Shown here: positions 21,496-32,809 of the stretch, in pieces
Numbering within the stretch: the first letter of the stretch is position 1
How the letters are laid out: the number at the start of each line of letters is the position of its first letter
Source: Rheinheimera sp.
GTDB lineage: Bacteria > Pseudomonadota > Gammaproteobacteria > Enterobacterales > Alteromonadaceae
Length of the DNA stretch: 64,000 bases
Assembly (NCBI GenBank): GCA_003543135.1
Contig: DPJG01000025.1
Span: 62,001-126,000 of the forward strand
Direction: 5' to 3'
Notes under the pieces: generated by a model
The model's database searches: none
What the model was told of the DNA's origin: nothing
Seen by the model: only the letters and a program-made list of their open reading frames with translations
Position numbers and translations under genes: made by a program

Positions 21496-22098
21496 TTAAA
21501 AAGGTTTGCGACCACTTAAGGCATAAGACAGGGTGCTGCCGTCAACATATTCCAGCTCACCACCCACAGGCATGCCCTGGGCCAGACGGGATACCTGAAT
21601 TTGGTGTTTTTTACAAAGCTCAGCAATATAAAAAGCGGTGGCATCCCCTTCAATGGTTGGGTTGGTGGCCAGGATCACTTCCTGGATCGCACCTTGCGCC
21701 AATTGGCTTGCCAGTAAGTCCAGCCCCAGCTCAGCCGGGCCTATGCCATCAAGCGGCGATAACTGACCGCCCAGCACAAAATAACGGCCGGAAAAAAGGC
21801 CTGTTTGTTCAATGGCGTATAAATCTGCCGCACTGGCAACCACACAAAGCAAAGCACTCTGGCTGCGGCTGTTGTCCTGACAAATAGGACACAGTGGCTC
21901 TTCGGCAAAAGTACGGCATTGCTGACAATGACCGACTTTTTCCATGGCATTGGCCAGCACTTTGGCCAGCATCACCCCACCTTCGCGGTTACGTTCCAGT
22001 AACTGATACGCCATACGCTGGGCCGATTTAGGCCCAACTGAAGGTAAAACCCGAAGTGCATCAATCAGTTGCTGCACCATGGCTGTATGTTTTGCCAT
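21496..22098 (-). CDS. recR: Recombination mediator protein RecR
   Basis: RecR acts with RecF/RecO to load RecA onto SSB-coated gapped DNA. The protein has 200 residues (E. coli 201). Helix-hairpin-helix [19 protein letters not shown], four-cysteine zinc finger [16 protein letters not shown], and Toprim domain ([37 protein letters not shown]) are complete. It follows ybaB by 33 bases, the standard dnaX-ybaB-recR order. Confidence 0.97.
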
Positions 22099-22131
22099 AC
22101 CGGAACGTCCTTAACTTAACCAGCAACCAGA

Positions 22132-22458
22132 TTAAAACGGCATCTTAAAACCTGGCGGTAATTGCATACCACCGGCCACACCAGCCATTTTTTCTTTGCT
22201 GCTTTCTTCAACCCGGCGCACTGCATCGTTAATGGCTGCGGCAATCAGATCTTCCAGCATTTCTTTGTCATCCTGCATCAGACTGTCGTCGATGCTGACT
22301 CGGCGCACGTTGTGATTGCCAAGCATCGTCACTTTAACCATGCCGGCACCTGCTTCACCTGTCACTTCCATCCGGGCGATTTCTTCCTGGGCGCGCTGCA
22401 TTTTTTCCTGCATAGCCTGCGCCTGTTTCATGATATTACCCATGCCACCTTTAAACAT
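22132..22458 (-). CDS. ybaB: YbaB/EbfC family nucleoid-associated protein
   Basis: Small dimeric DNA-binding protein of the nucleoid. The protein has 108 residues (E. coli 109). [20 protein letters not shown], the Met/Gly-rich start, and the central [18 protein letters not shown] with [15 protein letters not shown] define the family. A long in-frame extension upstream lacks homology and is rejected. Lies between dnaX and recR, but here separated from dnaX by 192 bases that include a nested hairpin, unlike the tighter spacing common elsewhere. Confidence 0.96.
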
Positions 22459-22608
22459 AATTGTGCTCTCTTTTGTTTTCAGACCGCGTGCGGCTGTTTG
22501 TCTGTTCGCAGCCGCCGAACCGGCACTGCAGTGGACTGCAGGGCTGCACCCTGCGTTATTTATAGTGGCGACACGATAATCAGAATACGCTGAAAATACA
22601 AGAGAGCG

Positions 22609-22649
22609 CCTGCCAAGCGCTGGCTTTGCCAGCACATCGGCTTGACAGG
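22609..22649 (-). repeat. Nested inverted repeat immediately downstream of dnaX
   Basis: Outer arms CCTGCCAAG / CTTGACAGG (one mismatch) enclose an inner GCTGGC-TTT-GCCAGC hairpin. It begins right after the dnaX stop and lacks a T run. It may stabilise the dnaX mRNA 3' end or attenuate transcription into ybaB. Confidence 0.45.
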
Positions 22650-22650
22650 G

Positions 22651-25158
22651 TTAGCTGACGCTCAGCGTCTCTGCCAATAATTCAGCGCCAAACTGTTGTT
22701 GCATCGCCAGCACCAAAGGGTCTTGCGCCAGCAGTTGCTGTACATAGAGCCTGCGGGCGTCATCGATGCGTTGTTGAATGGCCTGCGGACAATCCGGCAC
22801 TTGTTCAGCAAACTCCACACTGACCAAAAGTTCGGTGCCATAAGAAGCTGATAATACTCTGGCCAGCGTCTGACGGTTTTTTTCGTTGTCCAGATGTCGC
22901 TGACTATTGCTGACAGTTAACACTAACTGATTGTCCTGTAGTTTTGGACTTGAGTGCAGCAGGAATAACCGCATCAGGCCGCCGATGGCGAGCTGATCTA
23001 TACGTGCCGCCCAGCTGTCAACCTGACTGGCAGTGCGAACGGCAAAATTGTGGGCGCCTATCACACCATCAAACTCCATCACCTGCCCCAGGGCTTCGGG
23101 CGATAATTCCGGCTGAGCTATGGCTTCGCTTTCAAAATCGGTGTCCTCTGCCACAGGTTGTAAACTTTCCAGCAGAGCATGGCGAATAGGTGCTGCTGTG
23201 TTTTGGCTGCTTTGTGCTACGGCCGCTGTTTCTTCGGCGGCCTGATATTGTTGCCAGGCCCAGTCGCCACCGGCGCTGTCAGCCACAGGATCGGGTTCAT
23301 CTTCAGAATCATCGGTATTGACCATGGCAGCAGCAGGCGCATGGTGACTCAGCGCTTGGGCTTCTTCACTATCCTCATCGACCACAGCTACCGGATTGGT
23401 GATCGCCAAAGTATGCTCAGTAGCTAAAGGTTCAGTGGCGAAAGGCTCAGAGGGCACTACCTGAATAGCAGTAGCGGGAAGAGTGCCGGTATCGCTGATA
23501 GCAGCGCCAGGCACTGGCGTGAGGGCTGGTTCAGAGACTGCAGCGCCCCCCCATGATGTTGTCGTGACGGGCTGAATTTCTGGGGTTGAGGTTGGGGTTG
23601 CAGCGGCGGCAGGTTGTAGCTGTGCTGTTGGCCTTTGCGGCTGAACTTGCGCTGCTGCAGCAGGTGTTGTGACTCGGCTAGCTGCGAACTGCTGAACAAC
23701 CGGCGCCGGCTGGCGCTCAGACTTTTTTCCGTCATCGGCTCCTGGTAAAGCTGCTGAAAGTCCACGCCTTGCCAGAATGCTGGCAGTCACAGGATCGACC
23801 GCTGGTGCTGCTGTGGCTTGAGTTACCGCTGATGCTCCCGGTTGGTCTGCACCAAGATGCTGTGCAGAAAAATTTTCTGCAGCAGCGGCATCACCCTGAG
23901 CAGTTTCGGCCTCTGTATTCTGGCTTTGTTGCTGAGCGTTTGTATGATCAGCCGCCTGGCCTGACGCAGCTTGTTGTTGTGTTTGCACCTGCGCTGTCTG
24001 CGCCGGAATACCGGCTGCACTTAGCGCTGCCGCTCTGGCACTGTGGGCTGAGTCCTGTACCGGCTCGTTGCCACTGGCCGGCACAAAAGCAATAGCACGC
24101 AGCAACGCCATTTCGAGGCCAATACGCTGATCCGGCGCATAAGCTAAATCTTTTTTGCCACTTAACAGCAACTGGTAATACAGCTGGATCATTTCCGCTG
24201 AATGGGTTTTGGCCACGGCACGGACAAAAGCCGATTCGGTCAGCGCCAGTTCGGCAGCATTGAGCTGGAACTGACACAAAGCCGCAAGATGCAGCAGCGC
24301 CAGCATATCATCCAGCACTGATTGGTATTGGCTGTGCTGGGCTATTAATTGCAGCAAATGTTGTTGCATCGCGGCAAGGTCGCGGTTTAATACATCCTGC
24401 AGCAACAGCTCGGCCCAGGATTGTTCCAGTAGGCCCAGCATTTCCCGCACCGGCCCGAGCGCAATCTGGCCATTGGTCTGGGCTATCGCCTGATCAGTTA
24501 AACTCAGTGAGTCGCGCAAACTGCCTTTGGCAGCACGTGCCAGCAAGGCCAGTGCTTCGTCTTCGGCCTGAATATGTTCTTGCCCCAGGATATAGGCTAA
24601 ATGTTGTTTGATCTGGCTTTGGCTTAAGGCTTTTAAACTGAACTGCAAACAACGTGATAACACTGTAATCGGCAGTTTTTGTGGATCTGTGGTCGCCAGT
24701 AAAAACTTTACATGAGGTGGCGGTTCTTCCAGCGTTTTAAGCAGTGCATTAAAACTGTGTTTAGACAGCATATGCACTTCGTCGATCAGATAAACCTTAT
24801 AACGGCCACGGCTGGGCGCATATTGCACATTGTCGAGTAAATCGCGGGTGTCTTCCACTTTAGTGCGGGATGCGGCGTCAATTTCCAGTAAATCAACAAA
24901 ATAGCCTTTATCAATTTCGACACAGGCACTACAGACACCACAAGGAGTGGCAGTGACTCCTTTTTCGCAGTTTAAGCTTTTGGCAAAAATACGGGCTATG
25001 GTGGTTTTACCGACACCCCGGGTGCCGGTAAACAGATAAGCGTGGTGCAGACGATTTTGGGTGAGCGCGTTGATCAAGGCAGCTTTAACATGATCCTGCC
25101 CGACCAGCTGGGCAAAATTTTGTGGCCGCCATTTGCGCGCTAACACCTGATAACTCAT
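22651..25158 (-). CDS. dnaX: DNA polymerase III subunits tau and gamma
   Basis: The clamp-loader ATPase (tau; shorter gamma by frameshift). The full frame has 835 residues, longer than E. coli tau (643). The AAA+ domain has Walker A GTRGVGKTT at 45-53, zinc-binding cysteines in NCEKGVTATPCGVCSAC, Walker B LIDEVHM near 125-130, and SRC sensor LSRCLQFSL. Residues about 370-660 form a very Ala/Gln/Pro/Thr-rich linker; the C-terminal 150 residues resemble the tau domain that contacts the polymerase alpha subunit (DnaE, also in this window). A complete programmed -1 frameshift signal at codons 477-479 would yield a 480-residue gamma. Confidence 0.96.
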   Translation of the reverse strand: MSYQVLARKWRPQNFAQLVGQDHVKAALINALTQNRLHHAYLFTGTRGVGKTTIARIFAKSLNCEKGVTATPCGVCSACVEIDKGYFVDLLEIDAASRTKVEDTRDLLDNVQYAPSRGRYKVYLIDEVHMLSKHSFNALLKTLEEPPPHVKFLLATTDPQKLPITVLSRCLQFSLKALSQSQIKQHLAYILGQEHIQAEDEALALLARAAKGSLRDSLSLTDQAIAQTNGQIALGPVREMLGLLEQSWAELLLQDVLNRDLAAMQQHLLQLIAQHSQYQSVLDDMLALLHLAALCQFQLNAAELALTESAFVRAVAKTHSAEMIQLYYQLLLSGKKDLAYAPDQRIGLEMALLRAIAFVPASGNEPVQDSAHSARAAALSAAGIPAQTAQVQTQQQAASGQAADHTNAQQQSQNTEAETAQGDAAAAENFSAQHLGADQPGASAVTQATAAPAVDPVTASILARRGLSAALPGADDGKKSERQPAPVVQQFAASRVTTPAAAAQVQPQRPTAQLQPAAAATPTSTPEIQPVTTTSWGGAAVSEPALTPVPGAAISDTGTLPATAIQVVPSEPFATEPLATEHTLAITNPVAVVDEDSEEAQALSHHAPAAAMVNTDDSEDEPDPVADSAGGDWAWQQYQAAEETAAVAQSSQNTAAPIRHALLESLQPVAEDTDFESEAIAQPELSPEALGQVMEFDGVIGAHNFAVRTASQVDSWAARIDQLAIGGLMRLFLLHSSPKLQDNQLVLTVSNSQRHLDNEKNRQTLARVLSASYGTELLVSVEFAEQVPDCPQAIQQRIDDARRLYVQQLLAQDPLVLAMQQQFGAELLAETLSVS
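23703..23743 (-). promoter_or_regulatory. Programmed -1 frameshift signal in dnaX
   Basis: Reading along the minus strand: an internal Shine-Dalgarno AGGAG (23743-23739), exactly 10 bases, the slippery heptamer A AAA AAG (23728-23722) in the correct phase, a -1 frame of GTC then TGA stop, and a 5-bp GC hairpin GCGCC-AGCC-GGCGC (23716-23703) beginning five bases after the heptamer. This is the same set of elements, with the same SD spacing, as in E. coli dnaX. It predicts gamma ending ...GKKV at residue 480. Confidence 0.85.
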
Positions 25159-25213
25159 CTGCCTTCCTTTTATGCCTGAATGCCGGGCGGCGCAATAAGC
25201 GCCACCACATCAC

Positions 25214-25765
25214 TTAATGACCGGCAAAATCAATCAGGGCGTATACCTTTAATTGTAATGCCGCCAGACGTTTGTCACCGCCAAGGTCGGGCAGATTCAC
25301 GACAAAAGCCGCATCAGCCACTTCACCACCTAAACGGCGTACCAACTGGGTTGTGGCATCAATAGTACCACCAGTTGCCAATAAATCGTCAACTAACAAT
25401 ACTTTATCACCAGGTACTATGGCGTCGGTATGAATTTCCAGTGTGTCTTCGCCGTATTCCAGCTGATAACTCTGGGCAATACGCTCACGGGGCAATTTAC
25501 CTGGCTTGCGCACCGGCACAAAAGCAACACCCAGCGCATAAGCCAGCGGTGCACCAAAAATAAAACCACGGGACTCTGTGCCGATGATCTTGGTAAACCC
25601 CTGGTTGGCGTAATGTTGTTTAAAGTTATCAATCACTGCGGCAAAAGCCTGCGGATCCTGCATCAGACTGGTGACATCACGGAATAAAATGCCAGGTTTT
25701 GGATAATCCGGCACTGATTTAATCACTTGTTCCAGCATCCGGGTAAATTCTGTAGGGTTATTCAT
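25214..25765 (-). CDS. apt: Adenine phosphoribosyltransferase
   Basis: Salvages adenine with PRPP to AMP. With the ATG chosen here the protein has 183 residues, as in E. coli. Family blocks: [42 protein letters not shown] and the PRPP-binding motif [17 protein letters not shown] eight codons upstream is in frame but has no advantage. Lies upstream of dnaX on the same strand (55 bases), the E. coli apt-dnaX order. Confidence 0.96.
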
Positions 25766-25817
25766 TAAACCATCACTCTCATTATTCAATCGTTATCAGG
25801 TCAAAAGTTGTACTGAC

Positions 25818-25842
25818 AAAAAAACCGCCAAACGGCGGTTTT
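25818..25842 (-). terminator. Terminator after the 39-residue membrane protein gene
   Basis: AAAACCGCC / GGCGGTTTT, 9-bp stem, AAAC loop, with an A run giving a minus-strand T tail. It begins 18 bases past the stop of the small gene and separates it from apt. Confidence 0.85.
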
Positions 25843-25859
25843 GCTGACTCAGGGTTCAC

Positions 25860-25979
25860 TTAACCGAGAATTTGCAGCCAGCGTAAAATGGGTACCAGAC
25901 ACAGCAGGCCCACAAACACCGCGATAAAACCTAAAAATTGAGCCACACCAAAAGACTCTTTAAAATTCTCGTCTGCCAT
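25860..25979 (-). CDS. 39-residue single-pass membrane protein, unknown function
   Basis: A short frame encodes MADENFKESFGVAQ followed by one strongly hydrophobic helix (about residues 15-32, FLGFIAVFVGLLCLVPIL) and a short RWLQILG tail. I do not recognise a family. Support for it being real: a clear charged N-terminus plus membrane-helix pattern, a strong terminator 18 bases downstream that serves no other gene, and position 53 bases after hvfC on the same strand without an obvious terminator between. Ribosome site is weak (GTGGGA). It may be the last gene of the hvfABC unit or have its own promoter in the 53-base gap. If in the operon, a role in export or membrane docking of the peptide is possible but purely inferred. 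Confidence 0.65.
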   Translation of the reverse strand: MADENFKESFGVAQFLGFIAVFVGLLCLVPILRWLQILG

Positions 25980-26032
25980 TGTGTTTTCCCACTGCTAAAG
26001 GGCTAAAAGAAAGGCCGATATGGTAATGAATT

Positions 26033-26788
26033 TTAGTCCGCTTGGAAAGCTCGGATCACGCCTTTTCGTGCAAATTTGCTGAATAATTCAGCGGTGCCAA
26101 CCTGCAATGCCGCAGGTTCTGCAGCAGGCAATAACTGCTGCAGTTTTGTCAGTACCGCATTGAGTGACAACCTGGGTTCAGTGGCCAGAATTTGCAACGC
26201 AGTGGCGCTCAGTTCATTCAGACTGACAAACTTAATTTCATCGGTGTCGTTCCGGTACATCAATAAATAATAAGGTCCGTCGGCCTTAGTTGGCTGAAAA
26301 TCCGGGCTGATTTGCATCACCGGATACTGATAACACAGCACCAATGCCAATGCAGATAACTGCAGTGGCAGATCTGGCGTGACCGTTGTTAAAGAAGGTG
26401 CTGTATCTTCCATGGTGCTGGTCGCCAGATAAAGCTCCAGCCATTCATAATGGGCGAGCTCAATGGCAAATGCCGGATCCTCAGCGCTCAGCCCCTTGCT
26501 GCTGAACCATTGAAAAAAGCCGGCGGCAATATCGAGAAAATAAGGGCTTGAAAGTGCGCTCTGCGCAAAAAACTGTCTTAACTTTTGCCGCCACAAAGAC
26601 GCCGGATAAAGCGACTTTAAGACCGGAAAAGCACTGTTGACAAAATTCTGCACATTATTAAAAAACAGCTGCTGGTATACCGCCATACGTTCAACGCTTA
26701 TATCGTCAGGCGCAGGATTGGCCGGATCACGGATGGCGGCGGCAAACTGCTGTTGCACTACCTGAAAATCAAGGCTGCTTTTTGTCAT
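26033..26788 (-). CDS. hvfC: HvfC/BufC-family RiPP maturation partner (DUF2063)
   Basis: Partner of the MNIO enzyme in RiPP cysteine modification; characterised relatives bind the precursor and the MNIO enzyme to form the active complex. The protein has 251 residues, cytoplasmic. The N-terminal DUF2063 domain (about 8-100) has QQQFAAAIRDP, ERMAVYQQLFFNNVQNFVNSAFPVLKSLY and the FLDIAAGFFQWF helix; a second domain from about 150 has YPVMQISPDF, YYLLMYRNDTDEIKFVSLNELSA, resembling RRE-like peptide-binding folds described for these proteins. Its ATG overlaps the hvfB stop by four bases (ATGA), so production is coupled. Confidence 0.88.
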   Translation of the reverse strand: MTKSSLDFQVVQQQFAAAIRDPANPAPDDISVERMAVYQQLFFNNVQNFVNSAFPVLKSLYPASLWRQKLRQFFAQSALSSPYFLDIAAGFFQWFSSKGLSAEDPAFAIELAHYEWLELYLATSTMEDTAPSLTTVTPDLPLQLSALALVLCYQYPVMQISPDFQPTKADGPYYLLMYRNDTDEIKFVSLNELSATALQILATEPRLSLNAVLTKLQQLLPAAEPAALQVGTAELFSKFARKGVIRAFQAD

Positions 26789-27603
26789 CGCCCTGCCCTT
26801 TGCTGGCAGGCTTTAATTTGCCAAAGCTCCGCTTCTAACTCCGGCATTGGTGGCAGATTAAAATCACGTTCCAGCACAGTGGCAAAGACCCCATGACAGT
26901 CATACGCATGTTGCAGCAACTGCCATACAGGATCACAAACCGCAGTGCCGTGAGTGTCTATTAATAAAGATTCATGCTCAGTGTAATGGCCGGCAATATG
27001 ACCATAAACAATACGTTCGGAAGGCAAAGCCGCAATAAATTCGTGGGCGTTATACCCATGATTGACGCTGTTCACATAGACATTATTGACGTCCAATAAC
27101 AAACCACAATCGGCTTGATGCAAGACTTCGAGTGTAAAATCCAGCTCAGACATTTCCTGACCAGGTGCCGCATAATAAGACACGTTCTCCACCACCAGCT
27201 GCTGATCCAAAATATCCTGCACCTGCAAAATACGCTCAGCTGTATATCGGGCGGCGGCTAAGGTAAAAGGAATAGGCATTAAGTCATACAGATGACCACC
27301 AGCAGAACAATAACTTAAATGTTCGCTGTAGCGCTTGATTTGGTGTTGCTGCAAAAACTGTTTTACCGCTTTGACAAAATCCAGATCCAGCGGATCCGGA
27401 CTGCCAAGCGATAAACTTAAACCATGACAGGCAAAAGGATATCTTTCGGTCAGGGCACGAAACTGCTTACCCAGCGCCCCGCCAAAAGGTAACCAGTTCT
27501 CTGGTGCTACTTCAAAAAAATCAATCACTGCAGATTTTTCCTGGCTAACAGACGCCAGCATTTCGCGCCGCAAGCCCAGGCCAACACCAGACAACTGTGT
27601 CAT
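26785..27603 (-). CDS. hvfB: HvfB/BufB-family MNIO enzyme (DUF692)
   Basis: Multinuclear non-haem iron oxidase that in characterised relatives modifies cysteines of a RiPP precursor (oxazolone/thioamide or thiooxazole), creating copper-binding groups. The protein has 272 residues, a TIM-barrel. Expected metal and substrate ligands are visible: Glu in FFEVAPENW, His in ACHGLSLSLG, Glu-His in RYSEHLS, Glu-Asn in VVENVSYY, Asp-x-Asn-Asn in LLLDVNNVYVNSVNHG, His in YGHIAGHYTE, Asp-x-His in IDTHG and Glu-Arg-Asp near the end. It starts one base after hvfA ends with no clear ribosome site of its own, implying coupling to precursor translation. Confidence 0.92.
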   Translation of the reverse strand: MTQLSGVGLGLRREMLASVSQEKSAVIDFFEVAPENWLPFGGALGKQFRALTERYPFACHGLSLSLGSPDPLDLDFVKAVKQFLQQHQIKRYSEHLSYCSAGGHLYDLMPIPFTLAAARYTAERILQVQDILDQQLVVENVSYYAAPGQEMSELDFTLEVLHQADCGLLLDVNNVYVNSVNHGYNAHEFIAALPSERIVYGHIAGHYTEHESLLIDTHGTAVCDPVWQLLQHAYDCHGVFATVLERDFNLPPMPELEAELWQIKACQQRAGR

Positions 27604-27604
27604 G

Positions 27605-27985
27605 TTAGTTCATACCACCACATTTCCCTTCGCCACACTTGCCTTCACCACATTTACCTTCTTTGGTTTTGTCGGTGGCTTTATCAGCGGCCTTGTCAGC
27701 AGCTTTGTCGGCCATTTTTTCAGCACCGCATTTGCCTTCGCCGCACTTTCCTTCACCACATTTGCCTTCTTTGGCTTTGTCCACTTTGTCGGCGCCACAT
27801 TTGGCTTCTTTGCTTTTACCGTCGGTTTTTACTTTGTCAGCACCGCAGGACGCTTCAGCGGCCGACAACTGATAACCTGCTGCCAATTCAGTCGCCTGAA
27901 AGGTACCGGCGCTGGCTGTGCTGCTGATAGAGCCCAAAACCAGAACACCTACCGCAGAAACAACTTTTTTATGAAGCATGCTCAT
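27605..27985 (-). CDS. hvfA: HvfA-type RiPP metallophore precursor with EGKCG repeats
   Basis: Precursor peptide of 126 residues. A Sec signal peptide (VVSAVGVLVLGSISSTASA, cleavage near residue 26) serves as leader. The core is Gly/Lys/Cys-rich with eight cysteines: two in xKCGADK/ASCGADK contexts (47, 63) and six in EGKCG motifs in two cassettes of three (Cys76, 81, 86 and Cys112, 117, 122). The cassettes are separated by an Ala/Asp/Lys helical spacer (MADKAADKAADKATDK). HvfA-type peptides modified by HvfB/HvfC have EGKCG motifs and bind copper; export to the periplasm is expected. The ATG at 27985 has AAGGAA seven bases upstream and starts the signal peptide, so the longer frame is rejected. 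Confidence 0.9.
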   Translation of the reverse strand: MSMLHKKVVSAVGVLVLGSISSTASAGTFQATELAAGYQLSAAEASCGADKVKTDGKSKEAKCGADKVDKAKEGKCGEGKCGEGKCGAEKMADKAADKAADKATDKTKEGKCGEGKCGEGKCGGMN

Positions 27986-28032
27986 GTTGATATTCCTTAT
28001 GATCTGTCGATAAACCCTGATGATAAAACCCA

Positions 28033-28061
28033 ATATCAATGCCAGACAAGCTGTCCGGCAA
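28033..28061 (-). promoter_or_regulatory. Candidate hvfA promoter with inverted repeat in the spacer
   Basis: On the minus strand TTGCCG (28061-28056), 17-base spacer, TGATAT (28038-28033). An inverted repeat TGCCAGACA-AGC-TGTCCGGCA (28040-28060, one mismatch) fills the spacer. This places a dimeric operator exactly over the core promoter. The sequence does not match the CueR consensus. Confidence 0.35.
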
Positions 28062-28178
28062 TTACCCTGATAAAGACCCTGCAGTGTGTCGGAAAATTTC
28101 AGTGGCCGGAATAATTCTTTGGCGACGTCATCAGGGCTCTACAGAATTAGCACAATAGTGGCGCTTTTTCAGCAAGTT

Positions 28179-28192
28179 TTGATCTGCATCAG
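28179..28192 (+). promoter_or_regulatory. FNR/CRP-type box upstream of the DksA-like gene
   Basis: TTGATCTGCATCAG matches the FNR consensus TTGAT-N4-ATCAA at nine of ten positions. A weak -10 (CACAAT, 28215-28220) would put the box centre near -41.5, the classical activating position. It also lies upstream of divergent hvfA. Confidence 0.45.
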
Positions 28193-28257
28193 AGCAGCAT
28201 TTTGCTGCACGCTGCACAATCAGACCATTATTGCCCCCAATCTCATTGAGGTTTGTT

Positions 28258-28620
28258 ATGCCACAGTCTTTGACTCCAATGCTCAGAGCCCAGTTACTGG
28301 AAGAAATTCAGCAACAACGTGCTGCTATTTATCAGTATCTGCAACAAGCCGGATACAGCAACCTGCTACTGAAACTTGATAGTCACCCGCTGAGCCACTG
28401 GCCTGAATTACTGAATCAGTGGCTCACGCCGGAACTAGAAGCAAAAACCCGGCGACTGGAAGCAATTCAGGCGGCGCTGAGCCAAATGGATATGGGGCTT
28501 TATGGTTTATGTTGTGACTGCGACAGCAGAATTGAACGACATTTGTTACAACAGGATCCGGCACGCCAGCGCTGTGCACACTGTGACAAACTATATTCGG
28601 CCGCTAAAAAGCAGGCCTGA
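28258..28620 (+). CDS. TraR/DksA family zinc-finger protein
   Basis: Small RNA-polymerase-binding-type regulator. The protein has 120 residues (DksA is about 151). An N-terminal helical region (about 5-80) is followed by a C4 zinc finger: Cys85-x2-Cys88 (LCCDCD) and Cys106-x2-Cys109 (CAHCDKLY), with an extra Cys86. DMGLYGLC is the family hallmark (usually D-x-G-x-Y-G-x-C). Acidic residues at the coiled-coil tip needed for DksA action cannot be assigned with confidence. ATG at 28258 preferred for its GAGG ribosome site; an in-frame ATG nine codons earlier is possible. Divergent from hvfA. Confidence 0.85.
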   Translation: MPQSLTPMLRAQLLEEIQQQRAAIYQYLQQAGYSNLLLKLDSHPLSHWPELLNQWLTPELEAKTRRLEAIQAALSQMDMGLYGLCCDCDSRIERHLLQQDPARQRCAHCDKLYSAAKKQA

Positions 28621-29214
28621 GATTGTTCCGGAAAAAAAACTCTCAGAACCACAAATGATTTGATCTTGTCACTGTGGTTTGTTTGCCTATTAGCCGCTTA
28701 TGCATGCTGCATTCAGTCTGGCATTCACGGGACTATTTAACTGCATCCTGTCCCCGCTGCCTGGCTATCAGCTGTTTGGGCTGCATATAGCAGGATAGAA
28801 ACATTCAACATTAACCTCTGCTTATACACACCTCCATCAAGCGCATAACAATGAACAAGACAGCCCTGCTCCCTGCCGGTTGCCACAGCCGGGTTAGTGA
28901 CAACTGTCATAAAGCTGATTTGTAAATCAACCGCGAATCCAGACTTTGACATTGAGTACAGGCGGCAACACTTTCAGTACAATCAGGGGGATTTGCTAAC
29001 AAGCGGCACAGTTGCAGCTGTGTGGGGCGCCGCTCAGTTGGCTGGTGCAACATAAAACAGCGCGTGCAATCTTGAGGTCAGCGACCATTTTTAATGTTCA
29101 AGGTTGCACATAGCGCTGTTGGAGAACAAAGCCAGCAGCCCTTTGATGAAAAATCAATTACAAAACACTGTCACTGGCTCAATCAAGCTATTGCTGTAAT
29201 GGCAGAATCGCTTT
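28621..29214. other. 594-base gene-free interval
   Basis: Holds a weak hairpin after the DksA-like gene (AACCACA at 28647-28653 with TGTGGTT at 28673-28679, 19-base loop, then GTTTG) and the long imperfect inverted repeat at 29056-29120. The frame of 71 codons on the minus strand at 28737-28952 looks non-coding. No RNA gene recognised. Confidence 0.5.
29056..29120. repeat. Long imperfect inverted repeat downstream of the oxygenase gene
   Basis: The left arm (29056-29075: AACAGCGC, GTGCAA, CTTGA) and right arm (29098-29120) are complementary except for a 3-base insertion and one mismatch; a small GGTC-AGC-GACC hairpin sits in the loop. There is no T run on either strand. Could be a cruciform, a processed RNA structure or the remnant of a small mobile element. 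Confidence 0.5.
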
Positions 29215-29892
29215 TTAAGAACCGTAACGTTGAGTCCAACAGTTCACTGCAACAGTAATCCGCCGATCTGTGCCAAAAAAAGGCGCCACTTCATGCTGCA
29301 GGTAGGACGGAAACACAATCAATTGTCCGCCTTTTAATTTGAAGTTATGACTATAGGTATTATAAACACCGGTAAGATTTGCATTGCCGCTGTCCAGATA
29401 GGTATTACAGTGCGGCCTTGGATCATGAAATCTTAAAACGCCACTATCAGGTTTACCTTCCACATCTTCCCCAGGGTTCACACAGTACACTGCTGACCAG
29501 GACGCCATAGGGTGATTGTGGGTATAAAAATATCCGCCAAATTCGGTGATATGAAACCATGCATCACTAAACAGCTGAATCTTTTGCATTTGCTCATGAT
29601 CATAACCATTGAGTCGTGCAATAACCCATGCCACTGTCTGTAAGACAAAGAGTCTGAGCTGTTGTACTGCCGGGTCAGGATAATGAAATAAATCAAAATT
29701 ACTTTCGAACAGATTGTCCTGAACGTAGTTCTGCGGCCGTGGATTTTTGTGTTTAACGCCCTGCGAAACCAACACATCAAAATATTGTTCCAGCTTGATA
29801 TTTAATTCTTCCGGATTGGGAAAATCAATCACTGCAAAAGGGGTCGCAAACATGGGAAAAACTGAAGGTTCAAATGGTTTATTCATCATCAT
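29215..29892 (-). CDS. Putative 2OG-Fe(II) oxygenase (TIGR02466-like)
   Basis: Predicted 2-oxoglutarate/Fe(II)-dependent oxygenase of unknown substrate. The protein has 225 residues, no signal peptide. The double-stranded beta-helix core shows FHITEFGGYFYTHNHPMASWSAVYCV (metal His region), SGVLRFHDPRP, GQLIVFPSYLQHEVAPF (second metal His) and DRRITVAVNCW (2OG-binding Arg). Three successive ATGs; the first is given. It is separated from the TonB receptor by a terminator and only about 50 bases, so it depends on read-through or a very short promoter. Oxygenases of this type often sit beside TonB receptors in marine gammaproteobacteria; a joint nutrient-uptake role is inferred. Confidence 0.8.
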   Translation of the reverse strand: MMMNKPFEPSVFPMFATPFAVIDFPNPEELNIKLEQYFDVLVSQGVKHKNPRPQNYVQDNLFESNFDLFHYPDPAVQQLRLFVLQTVAWVIARLNGYDHEQMQKIQLFSDAWFHITEFGGYFYTHNHPMASWSAVYCVNPGEDVEGKPDSGVLRFHDPRPHCNTYLDSGNANLTGVYNTYSHNFKLKGGQLIVFPSYLQHEVAPFFGTDRRITVAVNCWTQRYGS

Positions 29893-29944
29893 TCAACTTA
29901 AAAACGTCAGTTTAACGGAGACAATTTTATTGATAAAAACAAAT

Positions 29945-29972
29945 AAAAAGCCCCCGTTAGGGGGCTTTTTTT
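29945..29972 (-). terminator. Terminator of the TonB receptor gene
   Basis: AAAAAGCCCCC / GGGGGCTTTTT, 11-bp stem, GTTA loop, with a minus-strand T tail; 15 bases past the receptor stop. Confidence 0.9.
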
Positions 29973-29986
29973 GTTAGCAGTTCAGA

Positions 29987-32809
29987 TTAGAACTTCATGG
30001 TCGCTCTTAAATAAACAAAGCGGTCCATGTTTACGTCGTATTCAGTTACAGAGAAGTTGTTGGTAGAAGCTGAGAAGCCATTGTTAAGACCTTCTGGCTT
30101 AGGTTCTTTAGCAAACAAGTTCTCAACACCAAATGTTAACTTAGTATTGTAATCACTTAAGTTATAACCCACAGAAATATCGTGGATTACATAAGTCGGC
30201 AGACGTTCTGTATAACCATCTGCGCCTGTTACGCCATATGTGTAGCTGTAGAAACCTTTCATAGCGTGAACATAACGGGCGGTGTAGTGAGCGTCCCAAT
30301 CACCTAACATCCAGTCAACACCGAAGCTACCTTTTAAGCGAGGATAACCAGCGTCACCCCATTGCACGCCTACGTATTCTTCATCATCGATTTCACTGTC
30401 AGTGACGTATGAGAAGTCCAGGTAAGTTTTGAAGGTACCAAACGACGTTTCTGGCAGGCGGTATGCCATATAGGTATCGACACCTTGTACGTGTAATGTA
30501 CCTTGGTTCTGCAGACCGTTGCGTAAGTCTACAACGTTACCGTTTGAGTCGCGGTCAACCAGGCCACAGAATTCTGAGCTTGGGCCACCGGTCGCACAAC
30601 CAGCCAGGATGATACCAGCACCGATACGTGAAATTGAGTCTTCAACTTCAATGTCATACCAGTCCACTGTCAACTCTGCGCCATCCAACCAGCTTGGGTT
30701 GTACACAAAACCGATAGTTTGTGATGTTGAAGTTTCTGGCTTCAGATCTGGAGATGACTGTTGTGTCACACGGATCTGTGGGTTTGACTGACGGTAACCT
30801 GCAGGAACACCAGCACAACCAGGAACCTTAGATAAATCTAAAGTGATTGGAGCACCAGCTGCAGTCAGAGTGTTACAAGGGTCAGTTAAACCAGTGTAAG
30901 AATCTGAGTTACCAGCAAATAAGTTAGACAGTGACGGAGCACGGTAACCTTCAGCCCAGGTAGAACGAACTAATAAATCTTCGATTGGGCGGAATTCAAC
31001 ACCAACTTTTGCAGTGCTGTTGCTACCGTAAGAGCTGTGGTCAGAGAAACGTACTGCCGGGCTGATTAACAGGTTTTCAAGAACCGGAATTGACACCTCA
31101 GCATAAGCTTCGTCCAGACGGAAACCACCAGCTGTTGCATCACGTTGGTTGCCTGATGATTCACCAGTCACAGTCAGCGGATCCGGGTTATCATAGCCAG
31201 TTTCTTCACGGCGTTCAAAACCAACAGCTAAGCCCATAAAGCCTGATGGCAGCTCGAACAGTTCGCCTGAAGTGTTAAAGGCGTAGTCTTTTAACTCACT
31301 ACCAGATGAGGCAATGCTGTCAAAGGTAATGTAATCAAGCATCTGCTGCGTGATTGTACCTGGGCCGCCAAATAAGTTTAATGGCACACAGGCAGTTGAC
31401 GCATTACAGTTTGCGCCTAAGGCAGAGTTGATACGGGTCAGGTTTAATAAACCTGTTGTTTTTTCATCTTGTGAGTTCTGACCGAAGATGTAGTGAGCAT
31501 CCCAAGTCCATGATGAATCACCGAAGGCACCTTCTAAACCAACCATACCACGGTAGGTGTTGTCATTTTGGTTATAACGGCGTGGACCAGCTTCCACCAT
31601 ACGGCGTTGCAGTGAGTATGGGTTGTAGGTAGCATAACCAGCAGCTTTCGCGCGTGATGCGTGACCGTACAGAGTCTCTTTGAACGGGTTGTAAATGTTG
31701 TTAGCGTGAATATCTACACGGCTAGCTGCTGCACCGAATGCTGCACCCAGAGTTACCGGCATTGGCGCTAATTCTTGCGCAGACTTACGGTTTGTCATGA
31801 CAAAGTCAGAAACCAAACGCAGGTCGTCAGTCAGGTTGTAGTAACCCTGAACATAAAACGCATTACGGTTCTGTGGAGTCACTAAGTAGTTATCAGGTGC
31901 GTAGTTATAGTTGTCACCGTTACCAGCAGCACGCTGACGGAACTTATCCAGACCAGTAGCAGCACCTGTGCCTTCTTTGGTCATTAAGTCATAACGACCA
32001 GATGTGGCAGTAGTGGTTTTGTAACCATTGGCGATCATTGCAGCCTGGTTGGCAGCGCTTAAAGTGCTTGCGCTAACGCCTAAACGGGTGTTCATACCAG
32101 TTGAGCTGTAACCAACTGAAGACACTTCGCGGTCACCGGCCCAAATTGGCTGTTGTGTGGTGTGAGTAGCATTGAACAGGATACCGCCTTTGTCAGTGCT
32201 GGTACCTAAGGTCATTTCAGCTGTGTACTGACGGCCGTCACCTTCACTCATGTTTTCGCCAACATAAGAAGATAATTCAACGCCTTCGAAATCTTTGCGT
32301 GTGATGATGTTTACTACACCGGCAATGGCGTCAGAACCATATAACGCAGAGGCGCCGTCTTTTAATACTTCAACACGTTCAATTGCAGAAGTTGGGATTG
32401 TGTTTAAGTCAACAGTTGCGCCTAAAGATGAAACCCAACGTCTGCCGTTTACTAAAACCAACAGGCGTTGTGAACCTAAGTTACGCAGGTCCATGTTGGT
32501 AGAGCCGTTACCACCGTTGTTAAAAGCGGTGTTTAACGCAGCACCAGCAGCAGGGATCTTTTGCAGAATATCACCGATACTGATTTGACCAGATACGTCG
32601 ATAGCTTCACGGTCCATAACCAGAATTGGACTTGCGTTTTCGACGTCAGTGCGCTTGATCCGAGAACCAGTCACTTCGATACGTTCAACTTTTTTGGCTT
32701 CTTCTTCTTCAGCTGCCATCGTAGTTGCAGAAAAAGCTGCTGTGGTGCCAACTGCACCGAACATTACAGCTAAGCGCACTGCATTAGATATTTTGGTATT
32801 TCTAAACAT
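29987..32809 (-). CDS. TonB-dependent outer-membrane receptor
   Basis: Energy-coupled outer-membrane transporter. The protein has 940 residues. The signal peptide is MFRNTKISNAVRLAVMF...TTMA; the mature N-terminus has an acidic/Lys patch then VERIEVTGSRIKRTD, the TonB-box-like start. The plug covers about 55-165 (ISIGDILQKIPAAG, DLRNLGSQRLLVLVNGRR, IERVEVLKDGASALYGSDAIAGVVNIIT). The rest is a 22-strand barrel ending in an aromatic residue (FVYLRATMKF). It has the long barrel loops of Alteromonad receptors for sugars, peptides or chelates; substrate cannot be assigned. I see no convincing Fur box. Ribosome site AGGGAG. Preceded by a small leader hairpin. Confidence 0.93.
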   Translation of the reverse strand: MFRNTKISNAVRLAVMFGAVGTTAAFSATTMAAEEEEAKKVERIEVTGSRIKRTDVENASPILVMDREAIDVSGQISIGDILQKIPAAGAALNTAFNNGGNGSTNMDLRNLGSQRLLVLVNGRRWVSSLGATVDLNTIPTSAIERVEVLKDGASALYGSDAIAGVVNIITRKDFEGVELSSYVGENMSEGDGRQYTAEMTLGTSTDKGGILFNATHTTQQPIWAGDREVSSVGYSSTGMNTRLGVSASTLSAANQAAMIANGYKTTTATSGRYDLMTKEGTGAATGLDKFRQRAAGNGDNYNYAPDNYLVTPQNRNAFYVQGYYNLTDDLRLVSDFVMTNRKSAQELAPMPVTLGAAFGAAASRVDIHANNIYNPFKETLYGHASRAKAAGYATYNPYSLQRRMVEAGPRRYNQNDNTYRGMVGLEGAFGDSSWTWDAHYIFGQNSQDEKTTGLLNLTRINSALGANCNASTACVPLNLFGGPGTITQQMLDYITFDSIASSGSELKDYAFNTSGELFELPSGFMGLAVGFERREETGYDNPDPLTVTGESSGNQRDATAGGFRLDEAYAEVSIPVLENLLISPAVRFSDHSSYGSNSTAKVGVEFRPIEDLLVRSTWAEGYRAPSLSNLFAGNSDSYTGLTDPCNTLTAAGAPITLDLSKVPGCAGVPAGYRQSNPQIRVTQQSSPDLKPETSTSQTIGFVYNPSWLDGAELTVDWYDIEVEDSISRIGAGIILAGCATGGPSSEFCGLVDRDSNGNVVDLRNGLQNQGTLHVQGVDTYMAYRLPETSFGTFKTYLDFSYVTDSEIDDEEYVGVQWGDAGYPRLKGSFGVDWMLGDWDAHYTARYVHAMKGFYSYTYGVTGADGYTERLPTYVIHDISVGYNLSDYNTKLTFGVENLFAKEPKPEGLNNGFSASTNNFSVTEYDVNMDRFVYLRATMKF

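Follow-up and report, generated by a model that had tools for sequence, protein, structure and literature searches.

A 39-residue membrane miniprotein gene behind an oxazolin-type hvfABC operon of Rheinheimera probably belongs to the neighbouring apt-dnaX block

Gene content of the hvf locus and its predicted product

The window, by which we mean the whole analysed stretch of 64,000 nucleotides, comes from a 4.0-Mb Rheinheimera sp. genome and carries hvfA, hvfB and hvfC on the minus strand at positions 26033-27985, with a 1-base spacing between hvfA and hvfB and a 4-base overlap between hvfB and hvfC. The features of the locus are listed below in the order of their coordinates.

22651..25158, minus strand: the gene that we take to be dnaX, part of the same syntenic block as apt
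25214..25765, minus strand: the gene that we take to be apt (adenine phosphoribosyltransferase), with a phosphoribosyltransferase domain (Pfam); start of the conserved apt-dnaX block
~25816..25842, minus strand: intrinsic terminator, a GC hairpin and T run after the miniprotein gene
25860..25979, minus strand: gene of a 39-residue membrane miniprotein, real and conserved; neighbour of apt/carA
26033..26788, minus strand: hvfC, DUF2063/RRE partner protein, 251 aa
26785..27603, minus strand: hvfB, MNIO (DUF692) iron enzyme, 272 aa
27605..27985, minus strand: hvfA, Cys-rich RiPP precursor, 126 aa, with a likely Sec signal (by eye)
28179..28192, no strand assigned: box with one mismatch (TTGATCTGCATCAG), of a type that we take to be FNR, between hvfA and the DksA-like gene; weak evidence
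28258..28620, plus strand: DksA/TraR-like zinc-finger gene, divergent from hvfA

Family models assigned all three hvf products. HvfB passed the cut-off of the NCBIfam equivalog NF003818 (426.5 bits against 360) and stayed under that of the NCBIfam BufB equivalog (260.7 against 310). HvfC passed the NCBIfam equivalog NF050145 (249 bits; cut-off 142), matches the Pfam families PF09836 and PF22106, and is a relative of 3DEE (E=8.1e-11). HvfA passed the KCGExKCG domain model NF050137 of NCBIfam (55.3 bits; cut-off 19.5) and scored under the cut-off of the full-length HvfA equivalog NF050188 of the same collection (35 against 95). A hydrophobic stretch with ASA at its end forms the putative Sec signal of HvfA, as judged by eye, and its eight cysteines (residues 47, 63, 76, 81, 86, 112, 117 and 122) are distributed over two blocks of three EGKCG repeats, which hold six of them, and two CGADK units. 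Searches of the whole genome matched the KCGExKCG model at the hvfA locus only and detected HvfB as the only MNIO protein; an Rfam scan of window positions 22000-30000 returned nothing at gathering scores. HvfA relatives lacking EGKCG were seen ahead of hvfB/hvfC at four other loci (L094, 4424-4861; L178, 3632-4132; L181, 7962-8399; L197, 7783-8250), where they carry other Cys-Gly repeats, including ASCGEGACG in L094 and L181, which, being on contigs of equal length, are probably one contig.

HvfB aligned to the solved MNIO structure 3BWW at E=1.4e-66 and more weakly to TglH (8hci) and MbnB (7dz9). Twelve candidate metal-ligand positions (H60, E94, H95, E139, D171, N173, N174, H202, H206, D216, H218 and E245), were identical in 109/109 aligned HvfB sequences, a set found with an HvfB profile that includes the window, leaves out ORFs of 230 aa or less and contains some genomes more than once. 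In a 29-row alignment the same positions were invariant except for E94. The published site-3 residues of H. influenzae HvfB, N175, D242 and H244, have counterparts here and would correspond to N173 or N174, D216 and H218, respectively, as read off the 3BWW alignment (PMC13419390, in its available text). The earlier note on this DNA had named an HvfB without metal ligands as a finding that would speak against its hvfABC reading; judged by sequence, the candidate ligand set is present and none is missing. That reading is thus supported by the family models and the conserved ligand positions, and the same note was right about the gene set, its coordinates and its 1-base and 4-base junctions, as well as about the 39-residue ORF and the terminator, all on the minus strand. 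On these models and repeats, hvfABC appears to be a complete oxazolin-type (Buf_EGKCG) RiPP operon. Its gene content, gene order, family membership and conserved ligand positions are seen directly here. The operon is an ordinary one of a known kind.

Among the closest known systems is, as described in the available text of PMC13419390, hvfABC/HvfX of H. influenzae, which makes oxazolin and likewise combines an exported EGKCG precursor, the MNIO HvfB and the RRE partner HvfC. It differs from the locus in the window in its precursor, which carries six cysteines as opposed to the eight found here (two of them in CGADK units), and in HvfX (DoxX), which has no adjoining counterpart in the window, where the 39-residue neighbour appears unrelated to the system (PMC13419390). 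EGKCG repeats with an MNIO and a DUF2063 partner are also shared with fontiphorin (fon) and other EGKCG MNIO-PME1 clusters; for fon the product has been characterised and a role in copper detoxification has support, both of which are only predicted in the window, and a mass loss of 8 Da for two repeats is reported for FonA (PMC13097082, in its available text). Similarly, mmrABC of Microbulbifer, the bulbicupramide cluster, joins an EGKCG precursor to MNIO and DUF2063 genes (mmrA-C); the main text of that paper describes five to eight repeat cysteines and a characterised peptide product, though one not detected in native cultures, and does not contain the word "DoxX" (PMC12538549). The bufferins (BufABC) share a Sec-exported MNIO substrate and a DUF2063 partner, but the paper on them places the Buf1/Buf2 precursors in other classes than the EGKCG type, and its main text has 0 occurrences of the phrase "small membrane" (PMC12452194).

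The oxazolone/thioamide groups first assigned to oxazolin were later revised to 5-thiooxazole, as given in the available text of both papers, so that of the modifications listed in the earlier note the oxazolone/thioamide option has been superseded by 5-thiooxazole for oxazolin (PMC13097082; PMC13419390). Judging by the published relatives, the HvfA product of the window would most likely be a peptide that binds Cu(I) and carries 5-thiooxazole groups. While still in the cytoplasm, HvfA would have its EGKCG cysteines oxidised by HvfB with HvfC, 5-thiooxazoles being the most likely outcome, and the modified HvfA would then be exported by the Sec route and bind and buffer excess Cu(I) in the periplasm. 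We infer this chemistry, export and copper binding from the characterised relatives, which make a periplasmic copper-handling peptide a sound and probably correct expectation.

The 39-residue gene behind hvfC

The miniprotein ORF starts 53 bp past the hvfC stop. It was found in 22/22 genomes of the genus, the present one included (E <= 3.1e-9), with the gene order hvfB-hvfC-small gene-apt-dnaX at every one of these loci, and the hairpin and T run behind it looked similar by eye throughout the 22. The median dN/dS within the genus was 0.11, calculated over those 63 of the 231 pairs among 22 distinct nucleotide sequences whose dS lay in the range 0.1-1.5. The best 19-residue Kyte-Doolittle mean was 2.49, hydrophobic enough for one predicted membrane helix; a 19-residue stretch with a mean of at least 1.8 was present in 32/32 rows of the miniprotein profile. 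The amino-acid sequence is conserved across families, with a length of ~36-45 aa. Together, these properties mark it as a genuine protein-coding gene under purifying selection.

The window miniprotein had no match in NCBIfam at E<=1 and a single, below-cut-off match in Pfam (E=0.32), and six diverse relatives had none in either collection at E<=0.1. A literature search, with most subscription journals outside its range, found nothing on the miniprotein. It appears to represent an unclassified single-copy family, without a Pfam or NCBIfam family.

Because a terminator scan found none between hvfC and the miniprotein gene, the latter may be co-transcribed with hvf in the window genome. The earlier note had suggested that the small gene might be a variant component of the operon; in such a role it could serve as a membrane part in place of DoxX. 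Within the genus this proposal looked strong, given the invariable position behind hvfC (22/22). The result of the terminator scan and the lack of an adjoining DoxX gene also speak for it. The proposal was dropped after the order-wide survey described below.

Distribution of the miniprotein and its gene neighbourhood

Of the 394 order genomes sampled, 142 matched the 32-row miniprotein profile at E <= 1e-4, each with one copy; in ten of the 142, all in f2/g4, the match was weak (E of roughly 1e-6 to 3e-5, covering positions 10-39). In a sample of the class it was present in 4/369 genomes, one of the four lying outside the order. We read 80 distinct-genome miniprotein loci, of which 79 were picked from various families among the 142 genomes and one came from outside the order; on contigs that were long enough, hvf was sought up to about 5-6 kb away. 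An hvf operon lay upstream of the miniprotein gene at 28/80 loci, with apt, ybaN-apt or, once, only dnaX downstream. The other 52 had no adjoining hvf: here the miniprotein gene was followed by apt or ybaN-apt at 34 loci and by carA at 15, and neither apt nor carA was found at three. The sequence upstream extended for 1.6 kb or more at 49 of these 52 loci; at the three shorter ones (L200, L220 and L232) hvf may be cut off. All 14 loci read in family f21 had the order small gene-ybaN-apt-dnaX and no hvf. An apt gene split into two overlapping ORFs was seen next to hvf in an Alteromonadaceae MAG (L126, 6775-7310), maybe through an assembly or sequencing error.

Among the marker genes sought, the next one downstream of the miniprotein gene was apt, ybaN(-apt), carA or once dnaX at 77/80 loci. 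Such constancy would be expected if the 39-residue ORF were a leader peptide or a chance ORF that controls apt/carA and has no function as a protein, which we nevertheless regard as very unlikely: the amino-acid sequence is conserved across families with the low median dN/dS given above, the hydrophobic helix is present in every profile row, the terminator separates the miniprotein gene from apt in the genus, and the protein is kept while the downstream gene differs between families.

The gene also occurs in genomes devoid of the modifying enzyme. No MNIO gene was found in 8 of the 75 carrier genomes searched, seven of the eight being at least 99% complete, and carriers with two or more MNIO genes still had one miniprotein copy, at apt or carA where the locus was read. 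These genomes, together with the 52 loci without adjoining hvf, make a role of the 39-residue gene as a variant hvf component highly improbable, despite its position behind hvfC throughout the genus and at 28 of the wider set of 80 loci. The gene is conserved after hvfC in the genus, and it fails to track hvf in the order.

A second set of 80 loci, named hvf loci (seven with less than 1.5 kb downstream of hvfC), was read from the side of the operon. The miniprotein was present at 41 of the 42 loci with a detected apt and absent from 37 of the 38 without one, which again speaks against an hvf component; the single exception, L099, has dusC and may represent the same site. This comparison of apt and non-apt hvf loci is confounded by ancestry because many of the 38 loci come from lineages that maybe lack the miniprotein family. 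The within-order comparison of miniprotein loci with and without hvf is not confounded by such a possible absence of the family.

The named loci also bear on the missing DoxX. A DoxX gene (HvfX) is frequent in HvfABC-type clusters without being universal. According to the main text of PMC12452194, most EGKCG clusters combine precursor, MNIO, DUF2063 and DoxX genes in one way or another. As the earlier note had observed, no DoxX gene adjoins the hvf operon of the window; the two DoxX matches of the genome both sit on other contigs, and the translations around them, read by eye, contained nothing copper-like. With detection by one seed and iterated profiles, DoxX was found at 0/42 named hvf loci with a detected apt and at 6/38 without one (not detected at 32/38). 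Lack of DoxX is therefore the rule at apt-site hvf loci and nothing unusual. In one genome of the same genus, a second hvfB/hvfC pair was seen on a 3.8-kb stretch without apt (L045; G017:C39), with a gene downstream on the opposite strand that we presume to be DoxX-like.

In several families, loci that have hvf and loci that lack it agree in a divergent dusC/dksA-like side, and in more families they agree in the (ybaN)-apt-dnaX side. At many apt-site loci a DksA/TraR-like gene is retained on the side of hvfA, and it also occurs at some loci without hvf. Most simply, hvfABC would have been inserted between the dusC/dksA-like and the (ybaN)-apt-dnaX sides: the miniprotein-(ybaN)-apt-dnaX block would be the older arrangement, and in several families hvfABC would have been placed in front of it, next to the divergent dusC/dksA-like side. 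It is also possible that hvf was present earlier and then lost in some lineages.

Taken together, we put the probability at about 0.9 that hvfABC is an oxazolin-type operon and that the downstream 39-residue gene is a separate, single-copy miniprotein of the (ybaN)-apt-dnaX block. As a counterweight, the adjacency in all genus genomes, the short 53-bp gap and the terminator that follows would be compatible with present-day co-expression or with recruitment in the genus, both of which are possible.

FNR-type boxes and a possible role of the miniprotein

A perfect FNR-type box, TTGATNNNNATCAA, lay within 150 nt upstream of the miniprotein gene at 27 of 125 loci; over the same number of loci, dinucleotide shuffling gave an expectation of 0.00, and windows drawn at random from these loci gave 0.50. 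At least three genomes were read twice among the 125 loci (L208/L212, L209/L211 and L210/L239), and some of the named loci duplicate unnamed ones. The 80 distinct-genome loci described above, from which L208-L210 and the named loci are dropped, contain all 27 perfect boxes, in families f1, f2, f6, f9, f11, f12, f15 and f20. The box stays with the miniprotein gene though the gene upstream varies (pepD, dusC or hvfC). No FNR-type box, even with one mismatch allowed, was found upstream of the miniprotein gene at 47 of the 80 loci, at any of the 14 f21 loci read or in the window. An FNR-type operator upstream of the miniprotein gene is likely in many relatives.

Around the hvfA start, perfect boxes were found at 0/78 loci and boxes with up to one mismatch at 9/78, against 2.15 expected; this signal is weak and not independent because five of the nine are in Rheinheimera records.

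Boxes with up to one mismatch were present at 26 of the 52 miniprotein loci without hvf and at 7 of the 28 with hvf (Fisher p=0.035, uncorrected for ancestry). This difference, and in Rheinheimera the short gap behind hvfC and the terminator that follows the miniprotein gene, would fit a miniprotein that began as an independent neighbour of apt and was later recruited to the hvf operon, for example for membrane handling of the peptide. The box contrast leans on few lineages, however, as 14 of the 26 box-less loci without hvf belong to family f21. Moreover, a stretch at the hvfC stop, conserved by eye at 18 of the 22 genus loci, could be the miniprotein's own promoter, and nothing links the miniprotein sequence to copper. 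We consider such recruitment quite unlikely and retain the separate miniprotein of the apt-dnaX block as the preferred reading.

Conjecturally, the FNR-type box in many relatives suggests that the miniprotein may have a role connected with oxygen or respiration. In this possible oxygen link, its very small size and its one hydrophobic helix, it resembles CydX-type small proteins as described in the available text of PMC6005532; the likeness is one of analogy only, and in the loci read we noticed no oxidase gene next to that of the miniprotein. We offer tentatively, as a picture somewhat more doubtful than probable, that the miniprotein constitutes an undescribed single-copy family of the order under FNR-type control through a box near the start of its gene, that it acts in a membrane complex, respiratory or other, as a small subunit or as a partner in assembly, and that its gene keeps its place ahead of apt or carA, while hvf insertion changed its regulation in some lineages.

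For the hvf systems, this analysis removes a false lead for a fourth component, and the missing DoxX is typical of the apt site. Operon-like adjacency within one genus, even at 22 of 22 loci, can mislead as long as synteny has not been read more widely. As a by-product, the analysis yields a modestly interesting lead, an unclassified and conserved membrane miniprotein whose gene probably has an FNR-type operator in many relatives.
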